From Opitutaceae bacterium (GTDB lineage Bacteria > Verrucomicrobiota > Verrucomicrobiia > Opitutales > Opitutaceae): DNA of 64,000 nt. Where the stretch lies: positions 1 through 64,000 of the forward strand of contig JAGYIG010000003.1 of NCBI GenBank assembly GCA_018402455.1. Reading direction: 5' to 3'. Position numbers and translations under genes: made by a program. Under the pieces are notes generated by a model. That model saw nothing but the letters and a program-made list of their open reading frames with translations, was not told the DNA's origin and did not search any database. Shown one piece after another: positions 19,204 through 36,623 of this stretch. Within the stretch, counting starts at the first letter, position 1. Every line of letters starts with the position of its first letter.

Positions 19204-20119
19204 ATCCTACCTTATCCCCGAGGGCATTCAGCGGAGCCGCGCCGACAAGGCGCTGGCGGCAGCCTTCCCCGAACACAGCCGCTCGGCCTGGCAGCGGTCG
19301 TTGGACGCTGGAGACGTTACCCGGGGCGGAGCGGTGGTGGGCAAAAAAGACGAAGTTTCCGCCGGAGATGTGCTCATACTGAAACCCCCAGTCCTGATCC
19401 CCACCGACCTCACGCCGGCAGACATCCCCTTGGATGTTTTGTTTGAGGACGAGTCGCTGTTGGTGGTGAACAAACCCGCCGGCATGGTGGTGCATCCCGG
19501 AGCCGGGACCTCCAGCAACACCTTGGTGCATGCCTTGCTGCATCATTGCGCGGGCAGTCTCAGCGGTATCGGTGGAGTGGAGCGTCCGGGAATCGTGCAC
19601 CGTTTGGACCGCGAAACCAGCGGGCTGATCGTGGTGGCCAAGACCGACAAGGCCCACCGGGGCCTGGCCACGCAATTTGCCGAACGCATATTGCATAAGG
19701 AGTATTTGGCCTTCGTCTGCGGTGTGCCGCGTCTGCTCAGCGGGGTGGTGGATCAACCCATCGCCCGCGATCCGCGTCATCGACACCGGATGGCCATCCT
19801 CGAGACCGGCCGCGCCGCCAAAACCGATTGGATGCTGGAGGAGAAATTCTCGGCCCAGAATGTCAGTCTGTTTCGCTGCGAGATTCACACCGGCCGCACG
19901 CATCAGATTCGGGTCCACTTGAAGTCGATCGGGCACTCGCTGTTGGGCGACCACACCTACGGATGGAAACCCATGGAGTATCCCGAGATCAAGGTGGCGC
20001 GGGTCATGCTCCACGCGACGCATCTGAAATTTGTCCACCCGACTACGGGAGCAACCCTCGATCTCACCGCGCCGCTACCGACCGATTTCACCGACCTGCT
20101 AAAGGTCCTGCGGGATTAG
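19196..20119 (+). CDS. rluD: RluA/RluD-family 23S rRNA pseudouridine synthase
   Basis: A 307-residue pseudouridine synthase with an N-terminal S4 RNA-binding domain ([19 protein letters not shown]) and the catalytic domain. The nucleophile Asp is in [18 protein letters not shown]. The second motif [20 protein letters not shown] is also present. RluD proteins modify helix 69 of 23S rRNA; the exact target here is inferred from the S4+RluA layout. It overlaps the 3' end of the deaminase gene by 8 nt. A large repeat array starts 24 bp after its stop. Confidence 0.9.
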
Positions 20120-20142
20120 GCAGAAAATATCGGGAGGCTGAA

Positions 20143-20872
20143 GCAGGTGCGGACGACACGGAGGTCGTCCCTCCCTGGCCGTGGCGTGGGGGGAAGGACC
20201 GGCTCTGTCCGGTCCGCAGTCGTATGGGCCGTGCCGACGGTGGCTTGAGTGGCTGTAACCTGAGAGGCAGGTGCGGACGACACGGAGGTCGTCCCTCCCG
20301 GGCCGTGGCGTGGGGAGGACCGGCTCTGTCCGGTCCGGCAGTCGTAGGGGCCAGGCCGACGGTGGCTTGAGCGGCTGTAACCTGGAGAGGCAGGTGCGGA
20401 CGACACGGAGGTCGTCCCTCCCTGGCCGTGGCGTGGGGGAGGGACTGGCTCTGTCCGGTCCGCAGTCGTATGGGCCGTGCTGACGGTGACTTGAGTGGCT
20501 GGAACCTGAGAGGCAGGTGCGGACGACATGGAGGTCGTCCCTCCCGGGCCGTGGCGTGGGGGATGACCGGCTCTGTCCGGTCCGCAGTCGTATGGGCCAG
20601 GCTGACGGTGGCTTGAGTGGCTGTAACCTGAGAGGCGTGCGGACGACACGGAGGTCGTCCTCCCCGCCGTGGCGTGGGGAGGGACCGGCTCTGGTCCGGT
20701 CCGGGCAGTCGTATGGGCCGTGCCGACGGTGGCTTGAGTGGCTGTAACCTGAGAGGCAGGTGCGGACATGGAGGTCGTCCCTCCTGGCTGTGGAGTGGGG
20801 GAGGGACCGGGCTCTGTCCGGTCCGCAGTCGTAGGGCCGTGCTGACCTTTGGCTTGAGTGGCTGAAACGGGC
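20143..20872. repeat. Six-copy tandem array of 121-124-bp hairpin-rich repeats
   Basis: Copies begin near 20143, 20267, 20390, 20513, 20634 and 20755. Each holds a hairpin with arms GGACGAC/GTCGTCC, a second with arms GGACCGG/CCGGTCC, then GACGGTGGCTTGAGTGGCTG and CCTGAGAGGCAGGTG. The sixth copy is the most diverged and has lost part of the first hairpin. All three reverse frames are almost stop-free across the array, but the repeat length is not a codon multiple and indels vary, so I do not call a protein. The next 200 bp (20873-21075) hold no gene that I can support. Confidence 0.92.
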
Positions 20873-21075
20873 TTGTCCCGCCTGCGCCAAGGCTTGCGGG
20901 CAACCAGCGAAGCCCCTGTTGACCCCGAACAGGCGATGACCCGAACGGAGAACTGCTTCGCTTCGGCGCCCACGGGAGATTCCGCCATCCGACCCAGGCC
21001 ACGAGCGCATGAATCCGATTCACCGACCAAACTAACCCTTTGCAGCGGACGATAAATTCAGAACTGGGCCGTTTC

Positions 21076-22518
21076 ATGATTGTTGGCATCGACTTAGGCA
21101 CCATACGTTTCGCTCATCAGTTACATCGATTCGAAGGCAATCCCACCTGATCCCGAGCCGACGTGATCCCCAGCAGTTCCAGACTCCATCCGTCGTGCAC
21201 GTGGGAGAGCGCGGCGCCATCGTGGGAGAGCCCGGAGGACTACGGCGGAGGGAGCCGGGGTTGCCGGTCTGTCGGTTTGCCGTTTCCATCGGGCAAACGG
21301 ATTGCACCGTCTTCACCGACTACCTTGATCATGCCTACTCGCCTGAAGCGATTTCGGCCCTCGTATTGCGCAAGCTCGCTGAGATGCCGAAGCCGCCTTG
21401 AGTGAGTCCATCACCGAGCGTCATCACCGTGCCCGCTAACTTCAACGACGCGCAACGTCAGGCCACCGTCACGCCGTCGCCCGCCGGCATCCCCGTGCTG
21501 GGGCTGGTCATATCGCTCGCCGCCGCGACATTTTTGGGCTTAATACCGTTGAAGGCGAGCGCCTGATTTTTTGTCTTCACGGGGAGGCACTTTCGATGCC
21601 ACCATCCTCAGTGCGACCCCCGACGGGCTCTACGCCACGCCACCGAGGGGGCCGATAATATCGGCGGCAAAAACTTTGATGAACTCATCATGGACATTGT
21701 GGCCGATCAATTCCGCGGCCGTTCGGGACTGATCCCCGACGAACCCGAAGCCATGCAACGGCTCCACGTCGCCACCCAGTCCAAAAATCGCGCTGTCCGC
21801 AATTCGCGGCAAACGTCATCTCCAGCCGCTATTTTGGCCGGCAAATCCCTGCGGTGACCCCCAACCGCGCCCAGTTTGAAACCGCGCCGAACTGTGTCGA
21901 GTTTGTCAGGAAGTGTGTGAACGGGCGCTCAAGAGTCAGGCGCTGTCTTGGGACGGCATGACGAACTCGTCTGACGGGTGGGTCCAGTTTGTTGGCGGTC
22001 GAGCGAAGGTGCGGGAAATGAGTGGCCTGCAACCGCCCGTGGTGGCGTCGTTGAACAACCCGCACGCCCTTGGTGTGGTTTGCTGGGCGGCCGCCTTGCT
22101 GGCCGAGCAATTCCATCGGTGACAAAAGACCGCCGCTCCTCCTAAACAACAGGTCACCAGCAATGAGCTGGGGCTTCGGCCTTGATCCCACGGAGCGCAA
22201 ACCGGTCTTCCATGCGATGATTGAGAAGAATGTCGCCGTGCCCACCTCGCCAAGCAGACGTTCTACACCCAGAAGGAGGACCGCACCTCGCTCTCCATTG
22301 AACCTGCTGCAACGCAAGGACCCGTTCACGCTCTCCTGAGACTCTGGGCCAGTTCACCTTCGGCCCCATCCGCCGACCCGAAGTTACACCCCGTGAGCAT
22401 GGAAATGGGTTACGATGGCACCGCCGGGTGACGGTGACGCCGCGGACGGACGTTCCGGGAATCCGTGGCCCGGGAGTTTTCCCAACAGGCCGAGTCCGAC
22501 CTGACCGCCATGCTCTGA
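21076..22518 (+). pseudogene. Decayed Hsp70 (DnaK-family) gene with many frameshifts
   Basis: Pieces of an Hsp70-type ATPase appear in order but in changing frames. They are MIVGIDLGT at 21076; HVGERGAIVGEPGGLRRREPG; ITVPANFNDAQRQATVT near 21430; GGTFDATILSATPDGLYA near 21580; ADNIGGKNFDELIMDIVADQF near 21650; RAQFETAP near 21866; ALSWDG near 21943; FTFGPI near 22353; and REFSQQAESDLTAML with its stop at 22516-22518. Frame changes fall roughly every 50-150 nt, too many for function as written. It is the stand-alone, short-C-terminus Hsp70 type rather than housekeeping DnaK. Either true decay or a poorly resolved assembly stretch would explain it. A remnant of an Hsp70/FGE-fold pair is suggested by the next gene. 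Confidence 0.75.
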
Positions 22519-23921: not shown

Positions 23922-25463
23922 GTGCAGCTGCGCGCGGAGCTGGCGGAGCTACGGGTAACTTGGGAGGCGGTGGAGCGTCGCGAACGCGAGGCCGAACGGG
24001 ACCTCAGCGAAACCCGGTCCGAAGTCCGGTCGCTGCGCGATGCCGCAGGGCCCCTCCGCGCCGAATTGGCAGCGCGGGAGCGGGCGCAGAAATCGTATTA
24101 CGATTGGCTGCGGGAATACTTGGCGGTGCATCCAGCGCGGGTCAATCGGGCCAAGGCGGAGGAGTTGGTGTCCGCGCGGGCACCGGACGATGCCGAGCCT
24201 ATCGTGCGCGAGTTGCGGGCGCAGCTTGTCGAGTTGGAACGTGAAATTGAAAACGAACGCCGCGCGCGACTGACCCTGACCGGGGCGGTGCGCATCGAGT
24301 CGAGTCCGGCAGGCCTGGCGTGGGAAGCGGTGGACGCCTGGGGTCGCCCTTGGTCGGGGATTACCCCGGCGGACGTGACCGCCGCGGCCCTGGGACCCGT
24401 CAGCGTCACGATTACCCGTCCCGGATGGCGGTCGCAAGAGGTGAAGGCGATGGTGCGTCGGGAGGAACCGGCCCGGGTCGAGGCCGCGTTCCCGTCCGGC
24501 ATCCTCGAGCTGGCAGTCAGCGGCCCGAGCACCTACCAGGTGAAAATCAACGACCAGCTGGCCAAAGTGACCGGGAACCAGCTGGTCCTGCCGGCGGAAG
24601 TGCCCCTGTCGGTCGAAGTTTCCCACGAGGGTCACCAAGCAGAGTCCCGGGAACTGACCCTGCGCCCCGACCAGACCCGTCGATTGGAAATGACCTTGGT
24701 GGACTTGCGGCCAAAACCCGGGGAACGCTTCACCGTCCAAGGACTGGATTTGACCATGGTGCCGATCGCTCCGGGCACGTTAATGATGGGGAGTCCGACG
24801 AGCGAGCGTGATCGCGATGGAAACGAGACTCCGCACCGGGTGACGTTGACGCGTGCATATTGGTTGGGATCGACGGAGGTGACGCAGGGGCAGTGGGAGG
24901 CGTTGATGGGGAGCACCGTGCGCGAGCAGCGTGCCAAAGTTCCCCCTGATTGGCAGATGAGTGGGGAGGGAGACAACCATCCGATATACTACGTAAGTTG
25001 GGAAGAAGCGATGGAGTTTTGCCGGAAGTTTACGCAGCGAGAGCGAGCGGCGGGCCGGTTACCGGAGGGGTATGCCTACACATTGCCAACGGAGGCGCAG
25101 TGGGAGTTTGCGTGCCGGGCGGGTACGACGGGAGCTTATGCTGGGGAGCTAGATGCGATGGGCTGGTATGACGCCAACAGTAATTCAACGACGCACCCGG
25201 TGGGGCAGAAGCGCGCGAATGGGTGGGGTTTATATGACATGCACGGGAACGTGTGGGAGTGGTGTTTGGATTGGTATGGCGGTTACCCGTCGGGCAGCGT
25301 CATCGACCCTGCAGGTGTAAACTCGGGCTCCGACCGCGTTCGTCGCGGCGGCTGTTGGTACGGTGCCGCCCACCAGTCTCGGTCGGCCCGGCGGTTCGGG
25401 AGTTCGCCGGACTACCGCAACAGCAACCTCGACTTCCGCCTCGCCCTCACGCCTACGCTGTAG
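23922..25463 (+). CDS. Coiled-coil protein with PEGA-like region and C-terminal FGE-sulfatase-fold domain
   Basis: The open frame gives 513 residues. Residues 1-125 are a charged coiled coil (ELRVTWEAVERREREAE...). Residues 125-265 are beta-rich with PEGA-like wording (VRIESSPAGLAWEA, GPVSVTITRPGW). Residues 275-513 are an FGE-sulfatase (SUMF1/C-type-lectin-like) domain: PIAPGTLMMGS, STEVTQGQWEALMG, YVSWEEAMEFCRKF, LPTEAQWEFACRAGT, GLYDMHGNVWEWCLDW, and the ending RRFGSSPDYRNSNLDFRLA. The two active-site cysteines of true formylglycine-generating enzymes are absent (GGCWYGAAHQSRSARR), so sulfatase activation is unlikely and a binding or scaffold role is more probable. The real N-terminus lies upstream in a frameshifted stretch. 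Codon use becomes less GC-biased from about 24780. Confidence 0.8.
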   Translation: MQLRAELAELRVTWEAVERREREAERDLSETRSEVRSLRDAAGPLRAELAARERAQKSYYDWLREYLAVHPARVNRAKAEELVSARAPDDAEPIVRELRAQLVELEREIENERRARLTLTGAVRIESSPAGLAWEAVDAWGRPWSGITPADVTAAALGPVSVTITRPGWRSQEVKAMVRREEPARVEAAFPSGILELAVSGPSTYQVKINDQLAKVTGNQLVLPAEVPLSVEVSHEGHQAESRELTLRPDQTRRLEMTLVDLRPKPGERFTVQGLDLTMVPIAPGTLMMGSPTSERDRDGNETPHRVTLTRAYWLGSTEVTQGQWEALMGSTVREQRAKVPPDWQMSGEGDNHPIYYVSWEEAMEFCRKFTQRERAAGRLPEGYAYTLPTEAQWEFACRAGTTGAYAGELDAMGWYDANSNSTTHPVGQKRANGWGLYDMHGNVWEWCLDWYGGYPSGSVIDPAGVNSGSDRVRRGGCWYGAAHQSRSARRFGSSPDYRNSNLDFRLALTPTL

Positions 25464-25730: not shown

Positions 25731-26720
25731 TTATTCCTGGAAACCTTCGGGGTGAGCTTGGTGCCACGCCCAGGCGGTTGCCACGATCGGCTCGATCGTT
25801 TGATACTTTATTTCCCACCCGAGCTCTGACTTGGCCTTGGCCGAGTCGGCATAGAGGGCAGGGGGGTCGCCGGCGCGTCGCTCCGCCATCTCGTAGGGGA
25901 CCTTCAGGCCGGACACCTTTTCGACCGCCTCGATGACCTCCAGCACCGATGTCGGCGTGCCGGTCCCCAGATTGTAAAATAAACCGGTGCCCGGTTCATC
26001 GAGTTTATCGAAAACGGCAATGTGGGCCCGGCTCAAATCGTCCACGTGCACGTAGTCGCGCAGGCAGGTGCCATCCGGCGTGGGGTAATCCTGACCAAAT
26101 ACCTTGAGCGGGGGGCGGCGGCCGGTCGCCGCGTCGATCGCGAGCGGAATGAGGTGACTCTCCGGGTCGTGGGCCTCCCCGATGGTGGCGTCTTCGGCGG
26201 CACCCGCGGCGTTGAAATAACGGAAGGCGGCAAAGCTCAGCCCGTGGGCATGGGCGAGGGCCTTGAGGGCATTCTCGATGTCGAGTTTGGTCTGACCATA
26301 GGGATTGATGGGGGCCTGCGGCAGATCCTCGGTGATGGGCATGCGCTCCGGTATCCCGAATGTGGCACAGGTGGACGAGAACACGAATTTGGTCACTCCC
26401 TCGGACAGCATGGTCTCGAGGAGCCGGAGGGTCGCGACCACGTTGTTGAAATAATACTTGAGCGGATCGGTCACGGATTCGCCGACGTAGGCGAAGGCGG
26501 CAAAGTGCATGACCAGGTCGATTTTCTCTTCGATCAGGATTTGGCCAACGGTGTCCGGATCGCCCAAGTCCCCGTCATAGAACGGAATATCCGGTGCCAC
26601 CGCCGCGCGATGCCCAAAAACCAAATTATCCAACACGACGGGGCGGTGTCCCGCGGCCTGTAATTGGCGCACACAATGGCTGCCGATGTAACCTGCTCCA
26701 CCTACGACAAGGACATTCAT
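25731..26720 (-). CDS. galE: UDP-glucose 4-epimerase
   Basis: A 329-residue extended SDR that interconverts UDP-glucose and UDP-galactose. The N-terminal NAD motif is VLVVGGAGYIGSH. The catalytic Ser/Thr lies in FSSTCATFG, and the Tyr-X3-Lys in NPYGQTKLDIE. FRYFNAAGA and LRDYVHVDDLSRAH are GalE signatures. Length and ends match the family. It is divergent from the acyl cluster, with 54 bp between the two starts, so the promoters of galE and the cluster must share that interval. Its sugar product likely feeds cell-surface glycans. Confidence 0.95.
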   Translation of the reverse strand: MNVLVVGGAGYIGSHCVRQLQAAGHRPVVLDNLVFGHRAAVAPDIPFYDGDLGDPDTVGQILIEEKIDLVMHFAAFAYVGESVTDPLKYYFNNVVATLRLLETMLSEGVTKFVFSSTCATFGIPERMPITEDLPQAPINPYGQTKLDIENALKALAHAHGLSFAAFRYFNAAGAAEDATIGEAHDPESHLIPLAIDAATGRRPPLKVFGQDYPTPDGTCLRDYVHVDDLSRAHIAVFDKLDEPGTGLFYNLGTGTPTSVLEVIEAVEKVSGLKVPYEMAERRAGDPPALYADSAKAKSELGWEIKYQTIEPIVATAWAWHQAHPEGFQE

Positions 26721-26774: not shown

Positions 26775-28019
26775 ATGTCATTTGAAGCGCCCCGCATTGT
26801 CATCACCGGTATCGGACTCACCGCTCCGAACGGAAATTCTCTGGCTGAATACCGCCAAAACTTGCTCGATGGAGTATCGGGGGTGCAGCCGTTCGAAGTG
26901 CGTTACATGGGCAAGTCGCTGGCGGGAGTCTGCGATTTTGACCCCCTGAAATACCAGAAACGCAAGGAGGTCCGGGTCGGCACCCGGGCGGGCTCGATTT
27001 CCATTTATTGTGCCCGCGAGGCCGTGGCCCACAGTGGAATCGATTGGGAAAATCAGGCTCGTGATCGGGTGGGGGTTTACGTCGGCACCACGGAACACGG
27101 CAACGTCGAGACCGAGAACGAGATCTACGCGATTTCCAAATTCGACTACGATACGAAGTATTGGTCCCACTACCACAATCCGCGCACGGTGGCGAACAAC
27201 CCGGCCGGCGAGGTTTCGTTAAATCTGGGCATCACGGGACCCGCTTACGCCATCGGGGCAGCGTGTGCGGCCGGCAACCTCGGCCTGATCCACGCCACCC
27301 AGATGTTGCGCCTGGGCGAGGTGGATTTTGCCCTCTGCGGAGGGGTCAGCGAGAGTATCCACACCTTTGGGATTTTTGCCGGGTTCAAGTCGCAAGGGGC
27401 CTTGGCATCCCATGCCGATCCGACCAAGGCGTCGCGCCCGTTTGATCGGGACCGCAATGGCATCGTGGTTTCCGAGGGTGGTGCGCTCTACACGCTCGAG
27501 CGACTGGAGGATGCCCAACGGCGCGGGGCGACGATCTACGGCGAGATCGCCGGCTATCGGGTCAACAGCGATGCCAGCGACTACGTGTTGCCCAACCCCA
27601 CCCGCCAGGCCGAGTGTGTGCGGCAGGCGTTGAAATCCGCGGGCATGACCCCTTCCGATATCCACATCGTGAATACGCACGCCACGGCCACCCCGCAGGG
27701 GGATATTCAGGAGTGTGGTGCCCTCCGCGATGTGTTCGGGCAGAACTGCCCCGATACCCACATCAACAACACCAAGAGTTTCATTGGTCACGCCATGGGG
27801 GCGGCCGGCGCCTTGGAATTGGCCGGTAACCTTCCTTCGTTTGAGGATCTCACGGTGCATCCCACGATCAATGTCGATAACCTGGATCCGCAGTGCGACA
27901 TCCCCGGGCTGGTGCTCAATACCCCGGTAAAAGCGAAAAAAGTGGACACAATTCTGAACAACTCGTTTGGCATGCTGGGAATAAATTCCACGTTGATTGT
28001 GAAGCGTTTTACCGCCTAA
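26775..28019 (+). CDS. Beta-ketoacyl-ACP synthase (FabF/KAS II-like), first gene of the acyl cluster
   Basis: A 414-residue ketosynthase. The catalytic triad is intact: Cys164 in IGAACAAGNLG, His302 in VNTHATATPQGD and His339 in FIGHAMGAAGA. KS enzymes condense malonyl-ACP with an acyl thioester to lengthen the chain by two carbons. The start at 26775 gives the family-like MSFEAPRIVITGIGLTAPNG. The ACP gene follows after 18 bp. The Ala-rich nucleophile loop and HATAT (rather than HGTST) mark it as a divergent, pathway-dedicated KS rather than housekeeping FabF, which I infer is encoded elsewhere. It forms the start of an eight-gene same-strand cluster. Confidence 0.9.
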   Translation: MSFEAPRIVITGIGLTAPNGNSLAEYRQNLLDGVSGVQPFEVRYMGKSLAGVCDFDPLKYQKRKEVRVGTRAGSISIYCAREAVAHSGIDWENQARDRVGVYVGTTEHGNVETENEIYAISKFDYDTKYWSHYHNPRTVANNPAGEVSLNLGITGPAYAIGAACAAGNLGLIHATQMLRLGEVDFALCGGVSESIHTFGIFAGFKSQGALASHADPTKASRPFDRDRNGIVVSEGGALYTLERLEDAQRRGATIYGEIAGYRVNSDASDYVLPNPTRQAECVRQALKSAGMTPSDIHIVNTHATATPQGDIQECGALRDVFGQNCPDTHINNTKSFIGHAMGAAGALELAGNLPSFEDLTVHPTINVDNLDPQCDIPGLVLNTPVKAKKVDTILNNSFGMLGINSTLIVKRFTA

Positions 28020-28037
28020 CCTCCCTGTTTTTTCCTA

Positions 28038-28295
28038 ATGACCAAAGAAGACACCCAGCAGGTTGTGCTCGACATTATTGCCGATGTCGCTCCCGACGAA
28101 GATCTTACCAATGTGAAACCCGATGTTCGCCTGCGCGATCAGCTCGAGCTCGATTCGATGGATTTCCTCGATATCGTGATGGAGTTGCGCAAACGCCACA
28201 ACATTGAGGTGCCCGAGGCGGACTACCCGCAACTCGCCTCGCTCGACAGTTGTGCCGAGTATCTCACCCCCAAGTTCGAGGCGTTGGGTAAATAG
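28038..28295 (+). CDS. Acyl carrier protein
   Basis: An 85-residue acidic four-helix ACP. The phosphopantetheine attachment is Ser40 in LELDSMDFLDIV. It tethers growing acyl chains for the neighbouring ketosynthase, dehydratase and enoyl reductase. Housekeeping AcpP usually carries DSLD; DSMD and the position next to a divergent KS suggest a dedicated carrier. A Rho-independent terminator lies 22 bp after its stop, which separates it from the oxidoreductase genes. Confidence 0.93.
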   Translation: MTKEDTQQVVLDIIADVAPDEDLTNVKPDVRLRDQLELDSMDFLDIVMELRKRHNIEVPEADYPQLASLDSCAEYLTPKFEALGK

Positions 28296-28317
28296 ACCCG
28301 CAATTTTTTATCAATGG

Positions 28318-28344
28318 ACCGGGTCCTGACGGGCCCGGTTTTTT
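28318..28344 (+). terminator. Intrinsic terminator inside the acyl cluster
   Basis: ACCGGG and CCCGGT form the stem around a 10-nt loop, followed by TTTTTT. It lies after the ACP gene and 19 bp before the first oxidoreductase start, so the KS-ACP pair can be made at a higher level than the rest. Confidence 0.75.
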
Positions 28345-28362
28345 CATGGCCTCGTCTCTTTC

Positions 28363-29787
28363 ATGAACTCTGCGCACCACTACGATGTCGTCATCATCGG
28401 GGCCGGTATGTCCGGTCTGGCTGCGGGTATCCGCCTGGCGCACTTTGGCAAAAAGGTCTGTATTTTCGAACGGCACAACGCGGTCGGGGGATTGAACAGT
28501 TTTTACAGCCAGCAGGGACGTAAATTTGACGTCGGGTTGCACGCCCTGACGAATTTTGTGCGACCGGGCGTCAAGGGCACTCCGCTGACCAAGCTGTTGC
28601 GACAATTGCGGATTTCCCGCGATGAATTCCAACTCGCGGAGCAGAAGCGATCCCGGGTGGCCTTTGGCCCGAACGGCGAGACTTCGCTCACCTTCACCAA
28701 CGATTTTGCCGTCTTCGAGTCGGAGGTGGCGCGGGAGTTTCCGGGGCAAATTGATGGGTTTCGCGCGCTCGTGGCCACGGTGCGGAGCTATGACGACGTG
28801 AGTTTGGACGCGAAACCGGTGTCGGCTCGTCACGTGGTGCGGCGACACATCTCCGATCTGCTGTTGGAGGACATGTTGTTTTGCCCGGTGATGTACTATG
28901 GGAGCGCCGAGGAGCAGGACATGGAATTCGGCCAGTTCGTCATCATGTTCAAAGCCCTGTTTTTGGAAGGGTTTGCCCGACCGTTCGACGGGGTGCGGGT
29001 CATCCTCCGCACCCTGGTGGACAAGTATCGCGCCGCCGGGGGCGAGCGGCGCATGAAATGTGGCGTGCGCCGGGTGATCACCCGGGAGGGGCGCGCCACG
29101 GCGGTCGAGCTCGATGACGGAGCGGTCGTGACCACCGATCAGGTGATTTCCTCGATCGGGGCACCGGAAACCGAGCGCCTCTGGTCGCAGCCCGCCGGCC
29201 ATCAAGCCTCACCCGTCGGGGCGCTCTCCTTTGTCGAAACCATATCCATCCTCCAACGGCAACCCCGGGAGCTGGGTTGGGGCGACGACACCATCGTGTT
29301 CTTCAACGACCGTGAACGCTTCGACTACGTGGCCGCTACCGACGAAGTGGACCCCCGCAGCGGCGTGATTTGTTTTCCGAACAATTTCAACTACGAGAAC
29401 GGGCAGGAGCTGGCCGAAGGGGTGTTTCGCTGCACCTGTCTCGCCAACCATGCCCAATGGCAAAACCTGCCGGAAGCCTCCTACCGGCAACGCAAGGCCG
29501 AGTGGTTCCAAGTGATTCAAGCAAGCGCCCGACGCTTTCTTCCGGCGGTGTCAGACCAGACCCTGCAGGAGAGCCTGATCGCGACCGACATGTTCACCCC
29601 CCGCACGGTCGAGAAATTTACGGGCCACCTCGGCGGAGCGATCTACGGCTCGCCCCGCAAGCATCGGCAGGGCACCACCAGTTTGCCAAACGTCTACCTG
29701 TGCGGAACCGATCAGGGTTTTTTGGGCATCATCGGAGCGATGCTCAGCGGAATCTCGATGGCGAACTACCATATTCTCCGCGGATAA
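28363..29787 (+). CDS. CrtI-like FAD-dependent oxidoreductase 1
   Basis: A 474-residue flavoprotein of the phytoene desaturase / retinol saturase (CrtI) type. The dinucleotide motif is [14 protein letters not shown] with [10 protein letters not shown] after it. The C-terminal FAD contact is [20 protein letters not shown]. CrtI-type enzymes introduce or saturate C-C double bonds, or isomerise them, in long isoprenoid or acyl chains. Flanked by KS, ACP, FabZ and FabI genes, this copy most likely acts on an acyl chain (inference). No isoprenoid synthesis gene (crtE, crtB) is nearby. It is separated from the second paralogue by 191 bp that carry no gene I can support. Confidence 0.85.
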
Positions 29788-29978
29788 AAGCGGAAACGCC
29801 CCGGCGTGGAACCGGAAACGCGTTTGACCAAGAGGATCTAAATTCGTTGCTAGATATTCATTACCAACGGGTTGAAGGAAATCAGATCAGGGGTAAGAAG
29901 CAGCGGGCGGGGACGGGGACGGGATTATGCAAAACCAAGGTTGCGCTCGCTGCCGAGCGGTCTTCACTGGTCCGCTTC

Positions 29979-31451
29979 ATGGCTTATGACTGGCTAAAAG
30001 GTGTCGACGATGAGTATGATGTCATCGTCATCGGAAGTGGTCTTGGTGGTCTGACTGGAGCGAACTATCTCGCCAAGGCAGGGCACAAGGTCCTGCTGTT
30101 GGAGCATCATTACCAATACGGCGGATTGGCGACCTGGTTTACCCGCAAGGGCGGCCATATTTTCGACATCTCGTTGCACGGTTTTCCTATCGGCATGAAA
30201 AAATCGTGCCGCAAATACTGGTCGAAGGAAATCGCCGACTTGATCGTGCAGCTCACGGACGTCCGGTTTGTGAATCCCCAAATGGACGTGTGGACCGATT
30301 TCACGCGCGACGACTACACCCGGGTGTTGGTGGAGCAGTTCAAAGTGGACCGCGCCACGGTGGAGGCGTTCTACGACCATTTACGGTCGATGAATTTCTA
30401 CGACGACAATCAGGAAACGACCGGGGAGATGTTCGAGCGCTTTTTCCCGGGACGCAAAGACGTGCACCGCTTGTTGATGGAGCCGATCACCTACGCGAAC
30501 GGGTCCACGCCGGAAGACCCCGCGATCACGTATGGGATTGTCTTCTCCAATTTCATGGGCGCGGGGGTGTGGACGTTCCAGGGCGGGTCCGACCTGTTGA
30601 TTAAGAAGATGATTGCCGAGCTGAAGGCCAATGGCGTCGAGTGCCGCAAGCATGTGATGGTGCAGCGGGTTCTGGTGGAGGAGCGTGAAGGCTGCAAAGT
30701 CGTGGCAGGCGTCGTGGCGGGGAAGGACGGTCGCACGATTCGTGCGAAGGCGGTGCTCTCCAACGCGAACATCAAGAACACGATCCTGCGGCTGGCGGGG
30801 CGGGAGCATTTCACACCCGCCTTCCTGGCGGAGGCGGAGGCGGTCCGGATCAACACCAGCTCGTGCCAAGTCTATTTGGGTATTCGCAAGGGAGAGAGCA
30901 TCCCCCACATTGGCGACCTGGTCTTCACCTCGGCGGCGCCGGAATACAGCAGTTCCGAACTGGTCGACCTGCATACGACCAGTCGCACCTTTTCGGTCTA
31001 CTATCCCGACACCCGACCGGGGTCCGATCGCTACACCGTGGTGGCGTCGCTCAATGGCCGATACCCCCAATGGAATGCCCTGAGTGACGAGGAATACCAG
31101 CAGCACAAACAGCGGTTGATCGATGAGGCGATCGACTCTTTGGAAAACTTTATCCCCGGCGTTCGCGACAAGATTGACTGGATGGAGGCGGCGACTCCGC
31201 GAACGGTGGAACGTTACACCACGCACATGGCGGGCACCTCGTTTGGCACCAAGTTCGAAGGTCTGAAGGTTTCGATGAATCTGCCGGATGAACTCCCCGG
31301 GCTTTATCATGCCGGCTCAGTGGGCATCATCATGTCCGGCTGGCTGGGCACCATTAATTATGGCGTGATCACCGCCAACAAAATCGACAAGGTTCTCTAC
31401 GCCGAAAAGCAGGCCCCGACCGCCGTGGCGGCCGAGCCCGCCCGACCCTGA
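29979..31451 (+). CDS. CrtI-like FAD-dependent oxidoreductase 2
   Basis: A 490-residue CrtI/retinol-saturase-type flavoprotein. [19 protein letters not shown] and [12 protein letters not shown] form the FAD-binding N-terminus. [18 protein letters not shown] is the C-terminal FAD contact. It resembles its neighbour in architecture but is clearly a separate paralogue. The start at 29979 (MAYDWLKG) is chosen because family homology begins right after it; the open frame extends far upstream without homology, overlapping gene 1 in another frame. Its stop is 5 bp before the dehydratase start, so translation is probably coupled. Two tandem CrtI-like enzymes suggest two redox steps on the same chain. 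Confidence 0.87.
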
Positions 31452-31456
31452 ATTTC

Positions 31457-31903
31457 ATGTTCCAGCCGATCACCGACCTGATCCCGCACCGACCACCGTT
31501 TCTGTTTATCGACGAAGTGGTCGATCACAGCGAAACCACGCTGACCGCCCGGCGCCGGTGGCGCGCGGAGGAGGATTTCTACAGCGGTCATTATCCTAGC
31601 TCACCCATCACCCCGGGGGTATTGTTGTGTGAAGCCGTGTTTCAGGCGGGCGCCGCCTTCATGTCACTCCAAGCACAAGCGGAGGGGGCTGAACCGGGAG
31701 CCGGTATTCCCTTGTTGGCCAAGATCAGCGATGTGCGTTTTCGCCACCCGGTTTATCCCGGCGATGAGGTCTTCATTGATGTCGTCAAAAAGGAAGCGAT
31801 GGGGGGATTCACCATGATGTCGGGCCAAGTCAAAAAAGGGGACGGCACCCGGGTATTGACGGTATCTTTTGCGGTGGCGTGGAAGGTGCCGGAATCCAAC
31901 TAG
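31457..31903 (+). CDS. FabZ-like 3-hydroxyacyl-ACP dehydratase
   Basis: A 148-residue single hotdog-fold dehydratase that removes water from 3-hydroxyacyl-ACP to give trans-2-enoyl-ACP. LIPHRPPFLFIDEVV, catalytic His45 in YSGHYPSSPITPGV and Glu59 in LLCEAVFQAG are the FabZ/FabA signatures. It is only 5 bp after oxidoreductase 2 and 4 bp before the enoyl reductase start, so the three are co-translated. No ketoacyl reductase (FabG) is in the cluster, so the genome-wide enzyme would have to supply that step. Confidence 0.9.
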   Translation: MFQPITDLIPHRPPFLFIDEVVDHSETTLTARRRWRAEEDFYSGHYPSSPITPGVLLCEAVFQAGAAFMSLQAQAEGAEPGAGIPLLAKISDVRFRHPVYPGDEVFIDVVKKEAMGGFTMMSGQVKKGDGTRVLTVSFAVAWKVPESN

Positions 31904-31907
31904 TCCG

Positions 31908-32738
31908 ATGCCCGATTTCCTGAATCTTGCCGGCAAGACGTTGGTGGTGGTTGGCGTGGCCAATCGCAAAAGCGTGGCGTGGCTCACGGCCAAGACGCTG
32001 GAGGAGCAGGGGGCCAAGGTGGTCTACAGTGTTCGTTCCGTCGCGCGCCGGGATTCGTTGGGCAAGCTGTTGGGTGATCGCCCGGTGTTTGTTTGTGACG
32101 TCGAGGAAAAGGGAGCGGCGAATCGTTTGGCCGAGGAGGTGATGGCGGCCGGGCATGGTCCCATCCATGGTCTGGTTCATTCCATTGCCTTCGCGAACTA
32201 CCGCGATGGATTCAAACCCTTCGAGGAGACAAACCGGGAAGACTTCCTGCAAGCAACGGCGATCTCGGCGTTTTCGTTGGTTGAGTTGGCCCGAGCCTTC
32301 AAACCGCACTTCGCTCCCGGGGCGTCAGTGGTGACGATCGGCATCTCCTCCCTGCAGGTCACGCCGGACAACTATGGCTACATGGGACCCATCAAAGCCG
32401 CGCTCGAATCGGCCTCCCGCTTTTTGGCAAAATCCTTCAATCCCGAACCCGGCGTGCGATTCAACGTGGTGGGATCGGGACCACTGAAGACCAGTGCCTC
32501 CGCGGGGATTCCCGGTTATCTGGAAAGCTATCTGTATTCGGAAAAGCTCACGTTCCGGAAGCAGAACCTCGCCACGCAGGAAGTGGCGAACACCGTGGTC
32601 TTTTTGTTGAGCGAGCGCAGCAGTGGGCACAACGGAGCCACCTTGGTGGTCGATGCGGGTCTCGGCAGCAATTTCTACGACGCCGAGATCATTCGGCTGG
32701 CCATGCGGCGTGAGCGACCGGGCGAAACCTACTCATGA
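31908..32738 (+). CDS. FabI-like enoyl-ACP reductase (SDR)
   Basis: A 276-residue short-chain dehydrogenase of the FabI type that reduces trans-2-enoyl-ACP with NAD(P)H. The start VVVGVANRKSVAW is the FabI cofactor motif (GxxxxxSxA). The catalytic Tyr156-X6-Lys163 appears as NYGYMGPIK. Unlike E. coli FabI, the earlier active-site Tyr146 seems replaced (ITIGISSLQ-like region), so substrate geometry may differ. It overlaps the oleA start by 4 nt (ATGA), which shows translational coupling. Its presence allows full saturation of some units, alongside the CrtI-like desaturases. Confidence 0.9.
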   Translation: MPDFLNLAGKTLVVVGVANRKSVAWLTAKTLEEQGAKVVYSVRSVARRDSLGKLLGDRPVFVCDVEEKGAANRLAEEVMAAGHGPIHGLVHSIAFANYRDGFKPFEETNREDFLQATAISAFSLVELARAFKPHFAPGASVVTIGISSLQVTPDNYGYMGPIKAALESASRFLAKSFNPEPGVRFNVVGSGPLKTSASAGIPGYLESYLYSEKLTFRKQNLATQEVANTVVFLLSERSSGHNGATLVVDAGLGSNFYDAEIIRLAMRRERPGETYS

Positions 32739-33766
32739 AATTCAAGCATACGGTGATCGAGTCGATGGCGGTTGCCTTGCCCGACGAAGTGCTCAGCTCG
32801 GCCGAGGTGGAGCAGAGGCTGGCGCCGCTTTACGAACGGCTCAAGCTACCCGCCGGCCGGTTGGAGCTGATGACGGGGATTCAGGAACGGCGGATTTGGC
32901 CGGCGGGGACCCGGCCTTCGGACGCGAGTGCCCAAGCCGGACGGGCGGTGCTGGCCAAATCACGGCTGGCCTCGGCGCAGGTCGAGTTGTTCATGCACAC
33001 GGCCGTGAGCCGCGATATGTTGGAACCCGCCACCGCGTCCTTTGCGCACCGCAAAATCGGGCTCCCGGCCACAACGCAGATTTTTGACGTGTCCAACGCC
33101 TGTCTGGGCTTCCTGAACGCCATGACCGTGGCGGCGGGGATGATTGAGAGCGGTCAAATCCAATGTGCGCTCATCGCCTCCGGCGAAAACGGGGGCCCGT
33201 TGGTCGAGCACACCCTGCAAACCTTGCTGGAGCAGCCGCTGACCCGTCAGGAGATCAAACCGTATTTTGCCAATCTCACGATTGGGTCCGGCGCGGTGGC
33301 GGCCGTCCTATGCCATCGAGATCTCGCCCCCGAGGGTCACCGACTGGTGGGCGGAATTGCCCGGGCGGCGACGGCGCACAGCGAACTTTGCCAAGGCGAT
33401 ACCCATGGGGCCGACTCCCTGGCGATGCAGACGGATTCGGAGGCCCTGTTGGTAGCGGGGGTGGAGCTGGCCCAGCACACTTGGGCGGCCTTTCGTCAGG
33501 AATTGGGCTGGGCGACGGCGGACTTCGACCGGTTTATCTGCCACCAGGTGGGGCGCACCCACCGGCGTAAACTTTACGAAGCCTTGCGGCTGGATTTGGC
33601 CAAGGATTTCTCGACCTTCGAAACCTTGGGGAACACCGGCTCGGTGGCGTTGCCCGCCACCTTGGCCCAGGCGGTGGAGGCGAAAGCGATCAAGTCGGGC
33701 GACAAGGTGGGATTACTTGGGATCGGCAGCGGGCTGAATTGCCTCATGCTGGGCGTCGAGTGGTGA
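32735..33766 (+). CDS. oleA: OleA-type acyl-CoA/ACP head-to-head condensing enzyme
   Basis: A 343-residue thiolase-superfamily protein. It is closer to OleA than to FabH: SRDMLEPATAS carries Glu97, placed 26 residues before Cys123 (DVSNACLGF), the same spacing as the OleA Glu and Cys pair I recall from Xanthomonas. His270 (CHQVGRTH) and Asn300 (GNTGS) complete the active site. The end GLLGIGSGLNCLMLGVEW is also OleA-like. OleA joins two activated fatty acyl chains by non-decarboxylative Claisen condensation to a beta-keto acid, the first step to long-chain ketones and olefins. It is coupled to the enoyl reductase gene upstream and oleB downstream. Confidence 0.85.
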   Translation: MKFKHTVIESMAVALPDEVLSSAEVEQRLAPLYERLKLPAGRLELMTGIQERRIWPAGTRPSDASAQAGRAVLAKSRLASAQVELFMHTAVSRDMLEPATASFAHRKIGLPATTQIFDVSNACLGFLNAMTVAAGMIESGQIQCALIASGENGGPLVEHTLQTLLEQPLTRQEIKPYFANLTIGSGAVAAVLCHRDLAPEGHRLVGGIARAATAHSELCQGDTHGADSLAMQTDSEALLVAGVELAQHTWAAFRQELGWATADFDRFICHQVGRTHRRKLYEALRLDLAKDFSTFETLGNTGSVALPATLAQAVEAKAIKSGDKVGLLGIGSGLNCLMLGVEW

Positions 33767-33789
33767 ACGGACGGGAAATGGAATGACCC

Positions 33790-34675
33790 ATGAGTGAACT
33801 GCCCGCCTGGCTGACCGCCCTCTATCCGTTCACCCCGCAACGTTTCACGACCTCGCGGGGAGCGGGCATGAGTTATTTGGATGAGGGGGAAGGGGAGCAC
33901 GCGGTCCTCATGGTGCACGGCAATCCCACCTGGTCATTTTACTACCGCGAGCTCGTGAAGGAACTCCGGGGACAGACCCGTTGTATCGTGCCGGACCACG
34001 TGGGCATGGGGCTTTCGGACAAGCCCGAAACCTATCCCTACCGGCTGGCCGAGCGCATCGCCGACCTGGTGGAGCTGGTCGAGTCACGGGGGGTCACCCA
34101 GCTGGATCTGGTGGTGCACGACTGGGGCGGGGCCATCGGTTTCGGCCTGGCGGCCGCCCTGCCGGAGAAGATCCGGCGTATCGTAATATTGAATACAGCA
34201 GCCTTCCGGTCCACCCATCTGCCGGGGCGAATTGCCGTGTGTAAATTCCCGGGACTGGGCCCGGCGCTGGTGCGGGGCTTGAATGGGTTTGCGTGGCCGG
34301 CCACCTGGATGGCGATGAGCCGCCGGGCGCTCACCGGTGCTGAAGCCAAGGGCTACCTCTATCCTTATTCTTCGTGGTCCAGTCGCGTCGCCATCAGTGG
34401 GTTTGTGCAGGACATCCCGCTGGAGGCAAACCACCCCAGTTGGGCGACCTTGGCCAAGGTCGAGGCCGGATTGGCCCAGTTTCATAATCGCCCCATTTTG
34501 ATCGTGCGGTAGTCATACCAGTTGCCGGTTGCAGGACGACCATTTTTTCAAGGAGTGGACCGATCGATTTCCGGCAGCGGAACAGGTCTACCTCGAAGAT
34601 GCGGGGCACTATGTGTTGGAAGACGCGCACAACGATGCGCTGCCGCGCATCAAACAGCATTTGTTGACCCCGTAG
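33790..34675 (+). pseudogene. oleB: OleB-type alpha/beta hydrolase, frameshifted near the 3' end
   Basis: The first 240 residues read as OleB: MSELPAWLTALYPF, MVHGNPTWSFYYRELV, nucleophile Asp111 in VVHDWGGAIGFG, and GFVQDIPLEANHPSW. The frame stops at 34510. The C-terminus continues in the next frame as DDHFFKEWTDRFPAAEQVYL and DAGHYVLEDAHNDALP (with the catalytic His), ending at 34673-34675. A single small indel near 34500-34512 explains it. OleB decarboxylates the beta-lactone made by OleC to a cis-olefin; it resembles haloalkane dehalogenases. The damage could be a sequencing error or a recent loss. OleC and OleD are not adjacent; the next gene is malQ on the other strand. Confidence 0.8.
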
Positions 34676-34732
34676 TTTGCCCTCGGGGAGGGCCGGCCCG
34701 GATCCCCGGTGGAATACCGCGCTCCGGTGCTG

Positions 34733-36265
34733 TCAGCAACGCCCGGTCAGGGCGCCGAGGTTGCTGAGGTAGGGGGCGCTTTCGCGGATAAAGGTCTCCC
34801 AATCGTCGGCCCGATAGCGCCACTGCCAGTTGTCGGTTGATTTACCCGGGGTATTCAGGCGCGCTGCACTCCCCAGGCTCAACAGGTCCTGCACCGGGCA
34901 AATGGCGAGGGCGCTGACGGAACCGTAGGCGGTGCGAATGAGATCCCAACCGACATTTTCACCGGAGATTCGCAGATAGCGTCGGACGTGATCCTGGGTC
35001 TTGGCGTCGGCCGTGCGATACCAGCCCAGACTCGTGTCGTTGTCATGGGTGCCGGGATAAATCACGCTGTTGGCGATCAGATTGTGCGGCAGGTAGAGGT
35101 TGTCAGCATCGCCGCCGAAAGCGAATTGCAGAATCGTCATCCCGGGCAGGCCGGTGGCGTTGCGCAGTTCCACCACGCTTGGCGCCAACTCCCCCAGGTC
35201 CTCGGCGATCAGGCGGCAGGCGGGCAGGGCGGCTCGCACGGCTTGGAAAAACGCCATGCCGGGCCCCTCGATCCATTTGCCCTGCTTGGCCGTGGGATTG
35301 CCCGCGGGAATGGCCCAATAGGTATCGAAGCCGCGGAAATGATCGATGCGCAGGACATCACAGAGCCGCAAATTGGACCGAATTCGGTCAATCCACCACG
35401 TATAGCCATCGGCGGCGTGCGCGGACCACGCATAGAGCGGATTGCCCCAAAGCTGGCCGTCCTTTGAAAAGTAATCCGGCGGCACGCCGGCGACCGCCGT
35501 CGAACGGCCGGTTTCGGGGTCCACTTGAAAAAGTTCGGGGGTGGCCCACACATCCGCGCTGTCGGGGGCGACAAAGATGGGCGTGTCCCCAATGATTTGA
35601 ATGCCGGCTTTTTGGGCTTTGGCCCGCACCTGTTTCCATTGTCCGAAAAACAGATATTGAAAGAATTGGTAGGCTGCAGCGGAGGCCCTCACCGAGGGTT
35701 TTTGCCAAATTTTCGACTGTTGAGCCCGGTCGAGAAACCGAATTTCCTCCGGCCAATTCCACCAAGCGTCTCCACCGCATTCCTGCTTGAGCGCCATAAA
35801 GTAGGCGTAGGGCTCAAGCCAGGACCGGTTTTCCTGCAAGAAGGCGTCATAATCGCCATAAGGCGACCATTCGCGGTTGGATGCATCCCAAGAGGCATGG
35901 GCCTTGAAAAGCAGCGGCCATTTGAGCTGATAGAGCAGCCCGTAATCAATGCGTTCGCGGCTCAGTGATTGCAGCGGAACCAAATCCCCCGGGGCCAGGA
36001 GTTTGGCCTGCACCAAGGGCTGCAGATCGATGAAATAGGGATTACCGGCAAAAGAAGAGAAACACTGATAGGGCGAATCCCCGAAGCCCGTGGGACCCAA
36101 GGGGCACAACTGCCAATAACCGAGACCGGCCGCCTTCATTCCCGCAAACAGGCGATCGACGGAGCCGTCCAAAACCCCGATGCCTTGGTCACCCGGCAAC
36201 GAGCTGGGGTGCAACAGCAGTCCCGCCGAACGGAAATCCAACCAGTTAAAGAGAGGGGGGGGCAT
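34733..36265 (-). CDS. malQ: 4-alpha-glucanotransferase (amylomaltase)
   Basis: A GH77 enzyme, about 510 residues, that transfers maltosyl units between alpha-1,4-glucans for maltose and glycogen metabolism. GLLLHPSSLPGDQGIG and YWQLCPLGPTGFGDSPYQ are N-terminal signatures. The acid/base and nucleophile regions read DVLRIDHFRGFD and IAEDLGELAPSV, and FVYPGTHDND-like text (VIYPGTHDNDTSLGW) closes the site. The start at 36265 is chosen because homology starts there, although an in-frame extension reaches far upstream. It is 19 bp after the DksA-like gene, same strand. Confidence 0.92.
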   Translation of the reverse strand: MPPPLFNWLDFRSAGLLLHPSSLPGDQGIGVLDGSVDRLFAGMKAAGLGYWQLCPLGPTGFGDSPYQCFSSFAGNPYFIDLQPLVQAKLLAPGDLVPLQSLSRERIDYGLLYQLKWPLLFKAHASWDASNREWSPYGDYDAFLQENRSWLEPYAYFMALKQECGGDAWWNWPEEIRFLDRAQQSKIWQKPSVRASAAAYQFFQYLFFGQWKQVRAKAQKAGIQIIGDTPIFVAPDSADVWATPELFQVDPETGRSTAVAGVPPDYFSKDGQLWGNPLYAWSAHAADGYTWWIDRIRSNLRLCDVLRIDHFRGFDTYWAIPAGNPTAKQGKWIEGPGMAFFQAVRAALPACRLIAEDLGELAPSVVELRNATGLPGMTILQFAFGGDADNLYLPHNLIANSVIYPGTHDNDTSLGWYRTADAKTQDHVRRYLRISGENVGWDLIRTAYGSVSALAICPVQDLLSLGSAARLNTPGKSTDNWQWRYRADDWETFIRESAPYLSNLGALTGRC

Positions 36266-36284
36266 GGGAGGAAGAGCGGTAAAT

Positions 36285-36623
36285 TCAGCGTTTGCGCATG
36301 CAGGGAACGCAACTGACGGCGTCGGGCTGGATTTCGAGACGTTCGCGAGCGATGTCCGATCCGCAGACGAGGCAACATCCAAATGTGCTGGTATCAATTC
36401 TACGCTCGGCTTCCCGCAGCCGGTTCCGCTCATCCTCCAGCCGACGCTTACTCGCCAGCGCGATTTGTTGATATTGCATCGAATCCAAGCGGGACAGTCG
36501 TCCGATGGAGACATCAGGAGCGATCACCTCAGTTTGTGGGGAGAGGTCGCTGAGCTTTTCGGCAAGGTGAGTCATCCGGTCGACGATGATGCGCCGAAAG
36601 GGGGCTTGGGCTTCAGGAGTCAT
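36285..36623 (-). CDS. DksA/TraR-type C4 zinc-finger protein
   Basis: A 112-residue protein with a helical N-terminus and a C-terminal zinc finger, FGCCLVCGSDIARE...CVPCMRKR, the C4 pattern of DksA/TraR. DksA-type proteins bind the RNA polymerase secondary channel and adjust rRNA and stress promoters, often with ppGpp. The acidic DxxDA coiled-coil tip of DksA is not evident, so it is a family member but not necessarily DksA itself. The ATG at 36623 is preferred over an upstream in-frame start. It is in a minus-strand run with lepB and malQ. Confidence 0.75.
   Translation of the reverse strand: MTPEAQAPFRRIIVDRMTHLAEKLSDLSPQTEVIAPDVSIGRLSRLDSMQYQQIALASKRRLEDERNRLREAERRIDTSTFGCCLVCGSDIARERLEIQPDAVSCVPCMRKR

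Follow-up and report, generated by a model that had tools for sequence, protein, structure and literature searches.

What kind of molecule is made by a gene cluster that places separate fatty acid synthesis enzymes and a pair of carotenoid-type flavoproteins beside the proteins of head-to-head olefin formation? We analyzed such a cluster in an Opitutaceae bacterium of the Verrucomicrobiota (contig JAGYIG010000003.1, assembly GCA_018402455.1), within a stretch of 64,000 nucleotides that we call the window. The host draft genome totals 3.67 Mb, split over 100 contigs. The cluster spans 26775 to ~34676 on the + strand, and its eight genes encode, in order, a ketosynthase (KS), an acyl carrier protein (ACP), two CrtI/CrtISO-like flavin adenine dinucleotide (FAD) oxidoreductases (CRTa and CRTb), FabZ-like and FabI-like enzymes, OleA and OleB, as an earlier note on this DNA had stated. 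We conclude that the cluster probably encodes a discrete (type II) synthase that is dedicated to making a polyunsaturated acyl chain and is coupled to OleA, which would join two such chains head to head. This conclusion is based on the genes themselves, on the conservation of their catalytic residues and modules, on the co-occurrence of CRTa and CRTb with OleA, and on the complementarity of these genes with PfaD.

The cluster consists of two modules

The cluster is composed of two modules, [KS-ACP-CRTa] and [CRTb-FabZ-FabI-OleA-OleB], that are often joined in the family and, elsewhere in the order, mostly separate. The first module holds the FabF-like KS (26775..28019, Pfam PF00109/PF02801), the ACP with a DSM serine (28038..28295, PF00550) and CRTa (28363..29787, PF01593). 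The second opens with CRTb (29979..31451, PF01593) and continues with the FabZ-like 3-hydroxyacyl dehydratase (31457..31903, PF07977), the FabI-like enoyl reductase (31908..32738, PF13561), the head-to-head condensing thiolase OleA (32735..33766, NF006720) and the haloalkane-dehalogenase-like OleB, whose first part lies at 33790..34512 (PF00561; NF002938 below cut-off). The intergenic distances in gene order are 18, 67, 191, 5, 4, -4 and 23 bp, so that FabI and OleA overlap by 4 bp and OleA and OleB are separated by 23 bp; the starts of CRTb and FabI were set at the nearest in-frame ATG (29979 and 31908). Gaps of 4-24 bp, as described in the earlier note, are thus found over much of the cluster but not between ACP and CRTa (67 bp) or CRTa and CRTb, where the largest gap, 191 bp, is the junction of the two modules.

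Loci were fetched for 22 genomes of the family, and 13 of these have the complete set of eight at a single locus with the gene order of the window, some with inserted genes (L047, L048, L049, L137, L144, L145, L146, L149, L150, L152, L154, L155 and L156). Two loci (L142 and L143) have seven genes; inserted DNA separates CRTb from CRTa by 4.7 and 10.3 kb, and OleA is truncated there by the end of the stretch. Both modules are present at separate loci in three genomes (G143, G010 and G223), and the remaining four (G260, G080, G140 and G339) are partial or partly viewed. In the other families of the order the KS-ACP-CRTa triad occurs in 11 of 14 CRTa loci (exceptions L055, L056 and L065). L122 has the complete second module, L120 an interrupted one, and in G001 and G172 it is split. 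Because the gene order recurs in the family and its core recurs in a second phylum, as described below, the cluster is not a chance arrangement.

An inserted gene of ~454-475 aa between CRTa and CRTb is common to two family genomes (L137 and L144); the L144 copy has no NCBIfam match at 1e-10.

CRTa and CRTb co-occur with OleA and are complementary to PfaD

Using E-value limits of 1e-20 for CRTa and CRTb and 1e-45 for OleA, we detected CRTa in 112 of the 387 genomes searched in the phylum, CRTb in 77 of 288 and OleA in 66 of 240. The three genome sets are assumed to be nested by handle number, and one CRTb match (G221) was dropped before counting as a cross-hit of the CRTa gene. Among the 288 genomes, 73 have both CRTa and CRTb, 5 CRTa alone, 3 CRTb alone and 207 neither. 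Of the 240 genomes, 62 carry both CRTa and OleA, 3 only CRTa, 4 only OleA and 171 neither. CRTa or CRTb is present in 64 of the 66 OleA-bearing genomes (both in 60), and none of these 64 has PfaD (TIGR02814) over the cut-off. PfaD exceeds the cut-off in 3 of the 240 genomes (G046, G126 and G121) and in no CRT-bearing genome among them. The two OleA-bearing genomes without either CRT gene, G046 and G126, both carry PfaD. G046 has PfaD, two frames of >2,300 aa with KS matches, and OleA in contiguous order; in G126 OleA and PfaD are on different contigs. The earlier note had suggested that discrete enzymes and a CrtI pair replace a Pfa synthase, and this pattern of co-occurrence, with PfaD in the OleA genomes that have no CRT gene, lends the suggestion indirect support.

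The third PfaD-bearing genome, G121, has no OleA or CRT match in the phylum searches; three matches on its contig 1 (L171, L223) exceed the PfaD cut-off, and two of these fall in open frames >6,000 aa. The host genome has no match to PfaD (TIGR02814), and a hidden Pfa synthase was rejected on that search; large KS-bearing frames are present on its contigs 32 and 80. Contigs 32 and 83 also have several AMP-ligase-like matches, which on contig 32 accompany the large KS-bearing frames, as in a hybrid nonribosomal peptide/polyketide cluster.

An orthologous block is present in Desulfobulbales

A 16S probe pattern yielded eight named records, seven of Desulfobulbales type and one of Electryonea. 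CRTb was found in all seven of the former and not in the Electryonea record. Five of the seven fetched Desulfobulbales loci (L194-L198) exhibit KS-ACP-CRTa-CRTb followed by a FabZ-like gene. The other two are cut by contig ends: L199 starts at CRTb with FabZ after it, and L200 has KS-ACP-CRTa and then a truncated CRTb, in agreement with the block. A profile scan identified a FabG/ketoreductase-type short-chain dehydrogenase between CRTb and FabZ in L197, and a gene of ~250 aa occupies this position also in L196, L198 and L199. Identity to the window proteins is 61-63% for KS, 60-62% for ACP, 56-61% for CRTb, 39-42% for CRTa and 33-41% for FabZ. With a limit of E <= 1e-30, OleA was found in 90 of 93 genomes of the Desulfobulbales family set; a few of the matches are partial. 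Desulfopila, the source of L197, shares an NCBI family with Desulfotalea psychrophila, so that an orthologous KS-ACP-CRTa-CRTb block is present in the family of the species for which Rattray described a cluster of this type (PMC2649909).

Downstream of FabZ in L197 are ExbB/TolQ-, ExbD/TolR-, TonB/TolA- and TolB-like genes, a TPR protein and an FtsJ-like gene; these were rejected as pathway parts as they are tol-pal-like. The one gene scanned downstream in L194 is TonB-like.

Coupling to OleA or co-location

A number of findings count against a coupled pathway, and several of them suit an alternative that we regard as unlikely, namely that the Ole enzymes draw on housekeeping fatty acids to make ordinary saturated or mono-unsaturated olefins, and KS-ACP-CRTa-CRTb serves the synthesis of a separate lipid or of a polyene pigment. 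In other families of the order the two modules are mostly separate. Outside the order the genes are scattered: of 20 CRTa loci (L067-L086), 1 has KS beside CRTa and 2 have ACP beside it, and CRTb is the sole cluster gene at 10 CRTb loci (L126-L134 and L136), counts that cover the fetched stretches around CRTa and CRTb. OleA is without a match in four genomes that carry CRT genes (G108, G150, G185 and G235), and the fetched Desulfobulbales stretches gave no match to OleA, FabI or OleB. The co-occurrence counts come from related genomes, which are not independent samples, and Fisher values for them are not probabilities of independence; likewise, G046 and G126 belong to one family and are not independent cases. 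Weak PfaD-family matches occur in CRT-bearing G099, G179 and G218 (<=36.5 bits, cut-off 449). In the wider second phylum (345 genomes) CRTb is present in 19 genomes, PfaD over the cut-off in 26 and both in 0, a non-overlap that fits chance (1.4 expected, probability of none 0.22), and five CRTb-bearing genomes there have weak PfaD-family matches. The link to D. psychrophila is by relatives in its family and not by the genome of that species, and for the carriers in Verrucomicrobiota the product is predicted from the genes. The broken OleB frame of the window, described below, belongs to the same side.

Against co-location without coupling stand the near-complete co-occurrence and the exchange with PfaD. 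Moreover, CRTb lies in a block with FabZ, FabI, OleA and OleB even where the KS triad is elsewhere (L119 and L135 of family f1, L122 of f5 and the interrupted L120 of f4), and in L073 and L225 OleA is divergently oriented next to the KS-ACP-CRTa triad. We favor the coupled reading. Conservation of the gene order, which the earlier note had asked for in relatives, was observed within the family and for the core in another phylum, but beyond this order the genes mostly lie dispersed.

The conserved neighbors of CRTa in distant genomes encode TPR, FHA and M41-peptidase/AAA proteins and a BrkB-type membrane protein, and were rejected as unrelated to the pathway.

OleA is a true OleA and OleB is frame-broken

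OleA scored 458 bits against NF006720 (PRK09258; cut-off 285), which we take to be the model of OleA, an assumption supported by a nearly full-length alignment (254 bits) to chain 3row_A, presumably the Xanthomonas campestris OleA. Glu97, Cys123, His270 and Asn300 are present in 39 of 39 aligned rows. Glu117-Pro has been given as a signature of OleA (PMC7064751), and by alignment the window protein has the Glu-Pro together with the Cys, His and Asn. In a tree with few outgroup rows and very long branches, OleA is split from three other thiolase-fold proteins of the host genome (support 100/99), and the 3row sequence falls with OleA. Judged by these residues and this tree, the window protein is a true OleA; the earlier note had considered that it might group with FabH, and that identity was rejected on both counts.

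OleB is not intact as the earlier note had it. Its first frame ends at a stop at 34512, and the rest is read from the DNA in another frame (34502..34676, + strand), which places the break near 34500. The first part contains an HDWGG stretch, which we take to be the nucleophile motif of haloalkane-dehalogenase-like OleB, and the remainder alone has no family match in profile scans. Relatives have a single-frame OleB of at least 297 aa with the full C-terminal pattern in 13 of 14 loci; the 14th, L150, is uncounted because the frame chosen by the script was wrong. The host genome otherwise encodes an OleABCD set. An OleC candidate on its contig 15 scored 616 bits against a cut-off of 478 (profile positions 52-550 of NF006754, presumably the OleC model), and it is adjoined by a 3Beta_HSD-type candidate that we take to be OleD, both away from OleA. 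OleC and OleD were not found beside OleA in the larger loci of relatives at 1e-15, save for an OleD-like gene near the L197 block.

The frame break raises the possibility, which we consider improbable, that the pathway in this strain stops at a beta-lactone or ketone, as OleA alone yields ketones and oleACD without oleB yields beta-lactones (PMC6463001, PMC7064751). The single-frame OleB of the relatives speaks against such an arrest, and the break may have arisen in assembly, the genome being a draft in 100 contigs.

The KS and ACP are dedicated forms and the FabI-like enzyme is a distinct subfamily

Residue conservation was scored in alignments of open reading frames from the fetched loci that fell within a length range. 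Cys164, His302, His339 and Lys334 of the KS are invariant in 38 of 38 rows, and alignment to FabF 4b7v places an intact Cys-His-His triad. ACP Ser40 is present in 42 of 42 rows, and the FabZ-like enzyme keeps His45 and Glu59 in 26 of 26. An ordinary FabF and ACP were rejected: the KS scored 322 bits against the housekeeping FabF model TIGR03150, under its cut-off of 494, and it is only 30% identical to another host KS adjoining an ACP, while that ACP shares 28% over 58 aa with the cluster ACP. The FabI-like protein keeps the inner Tyr156 and Lys163 in 25 of 25 rows, and its best FabI equivalog score is 163 bits, under the cut-off of 362. Because the outer active-site Tyr of Staphylococcus aureus FabI is replaced by Ile146 in 25 of 25 rows, the protein is, by sequence, a subfamily of its own.

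These gene kinds also bear on a very improbable alternative, a ladderane-like or otherwise cyclized acyl chain as in anammox bacteria, whose candidate ladderane clusters have FabF, ACP, FabZ and CrtI-like genes in common with the window (PMC2649909). Among the eight genes there is no radical SAM or methyltransferase match, and the KS triad is unaltered, unlike that of the three anammox paralogues Kuste3606, Kuste2805 and Kuste3348. In addition, ladderanes are reported as undetectable in D. psychrophila despite its syntenic cluster (PMC2649909).

CRTa and CRTb are paralogous flavoproteins in an acyl-carrier context

CRTa and CRTb share the Amino_oxidase family and FAD-binding motif of the carotenoid flavoproteins CrtI, CrtISO and CrtD, and differ from them in acyl-carrier context and in score. 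Among the best 25 NCBIfam families, the top match of both is carotenoid isomerase, far below the cut-off, and against the CrtI phytoene desaturase model TIGR02734 (cut-off 238) CRTa scored 56 bits and CRTb 80 bits. In a tree of the quick kind, built like the OleA tree from selected loci and not from all matches, CRTa and CRTb form two sides of one branch (support 99) with both phyla on each side; long branches meet in it, and the labels CRTa and CRTb come from the best match to the window proteins. L080_CRTa_300 has a very long branch, and L062 and L063 are divergent. No CRTb match was found in a search of plasmids.

In the L062 and L063 triads (G163 and G128, family f5) KS is 75-76% and ACP 78-81% identical to the window, while CRTa is only 31-32% identical and on a long branch; a divergent paralogue may have taken the place of CRTa here.

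Action on carotenoids or other isoprenoids, which the CrtI/CrtISO-like sequence might suggest, is the least probable alternative of all, and CRTa and CRTb were rejected as carotenoid desaturases, for they score far under the curated carotenoid cut-offs, are grouped with KS and ACP genes in both phyla and, if they are kin to anammox kuste3336 and kuste3607, resemble proteins that did not replace CrtI in Escherichia coli (PMC4790861).

We favor the reading of CRTa and CRTb as enzymes of acyl-ACP in the coupled pathway. Carotenoid isomerase is redox-neutral. Because it is also the best model match of both proteins, CRTa and CRTb are more probably flavin isomerases, with allylic desaturases as the alternative.

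Proposed pathway

We propose that the KS would extend an acyl chain on the dedicated ACP, that FabG would reduce the product and that the FabZ-like enzyme would dehydrate it; FabG is presumed to be a housekeeping enzyme here and is a cluster gene in Desulfobulbales. CRTa and CRTb would then introduce or shift double bonds in the ACP-bound chain; they would act as flavin isomerases or allylic desaturases that work anaerobically, less probably as true phytoene desaturases, and in this way take the role of the dehydratase/isomerase domains of a Pfa synthase. Cycles meant to stay saturated would be reduced by the FabI-like enzyme. OleA would condense two such chains head to head, and OleD and OleC, encoded elsewhere in the genome, would act with OleB to finish a long-chain polyene. 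The product would most likely be C31:8/C31:9-like.

Relation to known systems

The earlier note knew of no described system with this composition, and in this it overlooked the Desulfotalea cluster of Rattray 2009. The lipid extract of D. psychrophila contains C31:8 (4%) and C31:9 (1%), and the species is reported to have no polyketide synthase (PKS) genes of the polyunsaturated fatty acid (PUFA) type, while the CrtI-like DP1860, DP2405 and DP2406 lie in clusters for type II fatty acid synthesis (FASII) (PMC2649909). Anaerobic PUFA synthesis by FASII together with phytoene-dehydrogenase-like proteins was already proposed in that study (PMC2649909). Like the window, the FASII clusters of D. psychrophila and Kuenenia stuttgartiensis described there bring together a FabF-type KS, an ACP and phytoene-dehydrogenase-like genes, and no PUFA-type PKS (PMC2649909). 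The window differs from them in its link to OleA and OleB, its FabI-like gene and its intact KS triad, and no radical SAM match was found within its eight genes, the part of the genome to which this comparison of ladderane traits applies. OleA, olefin and head-to-head are terms absent from the main text of Rattray 2009 (PMC2649909). CrtI-like FASII clusters tied to OleA or to Verrucomicrobiota were not found among the titles and abstract openings listed by searches of open-licence papers. Within the literature searched, the Ole link, the complementarity with Pfa and the distribution appear to be new.

A dedicated PUFA-type system that feeds OleA is also found in Shewanella and Photobacterium, in which Pfa synthase and OleABCD yield C31:9 (PMC6463001). 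OleA accepts chains from Pfa synthase (Allemann et al. 2019, PMC6463001), a transfer that by analogy is a precedent for the proposed coupling. In place of megasynthases the window encodes small discrete enzymes, and none of the 240 genomes combines CRT genes with PfaD above the cut-off. In Geobacter bemidjiensis the pfa and ole genes are in tandem (PMC4882568), and its pfa-like cluster was suggested as the source of the C31:9 precursor by Shulse and Allen 2011 (PMC3098273). A 2016 review states that every C31:9 maker then known also makes eicosapentaenoic or docosahexaenoic acid (PMC4882568), a statement at odds with D. psychrophila as Rattray reports it. X. campestris OleABCD resembles the host set in its OleA signature residues, an OleC over the cut-off and OleD and OleB candidates; here OleC and OleD lie away from OleA, and a dedicated acyl supply is encoded with OleA. 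For freshwater Opitutae genomes, oleABCD has been noted and read as carbon storage (PMC5673642).

Flanking genes and other features of the window

The cluster is flanked on the KS side by galE (25731-26720, minus strand; TIGR01179, 415 bits, cut-off 262) and on the OleB side by malQ (34733-36514, minus strand; NF011080, 625 bits, cut-off 477). In a comparison of 27 family loci, galE adjoins KS in 20 of 20 that hold KS and malQ adjoins OleB in 7 of 16 that hold OleB, and because of this the galE-KS junction is the steadier end of the cluster.

Elsewhere in the window, a repeated proline-, arginine- and glycine-rich pattern at 20088-21104 is open in several frames on both strands and looks like a non-coding repeat array; it adjoins a gene that we take to be RluD-like. 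At 23922-25463 a protein carries a C-terminal HGNVWEWCLDWY stretch, presumably the motif of formylglycine-generating enzymes, behind a coiled-coil-like part.

Implications

The route by which Desulfotalea synthesizes C31:8 and C31:9 in the absence of a PUFA-type PKS was an unanswered question in 2009 (PMC2649909). Genes of these kinds are also candidates in the biosynthesis of ladderanes, of which the ring-forming enzymes were still unknown in 2023 (PMC9821293). The eight genes with OleA attached are a compact and testable version of that pathway. We suggest, as a wider idea to which we give slightly less than an even chance, that they represent a third general route to polyunsaturated acyl chains, distinct from both oxygen-dependent desaturases and Pfa. 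In such a route a discrete KS-ACP pair would work with two paralogous flavoproteins that set cis double bonds anaerobically; it would extend across Verrucomicrobiota and Desulfobulbales, be interchangeable with Pfa before OleA, and likely be the root of the PUFA-like part of ladderane clusters. Cultured members of the Opitutaceae exist, and the cluster may reveal a new anaerobic chemistry of acyl desaturation or isomerization.

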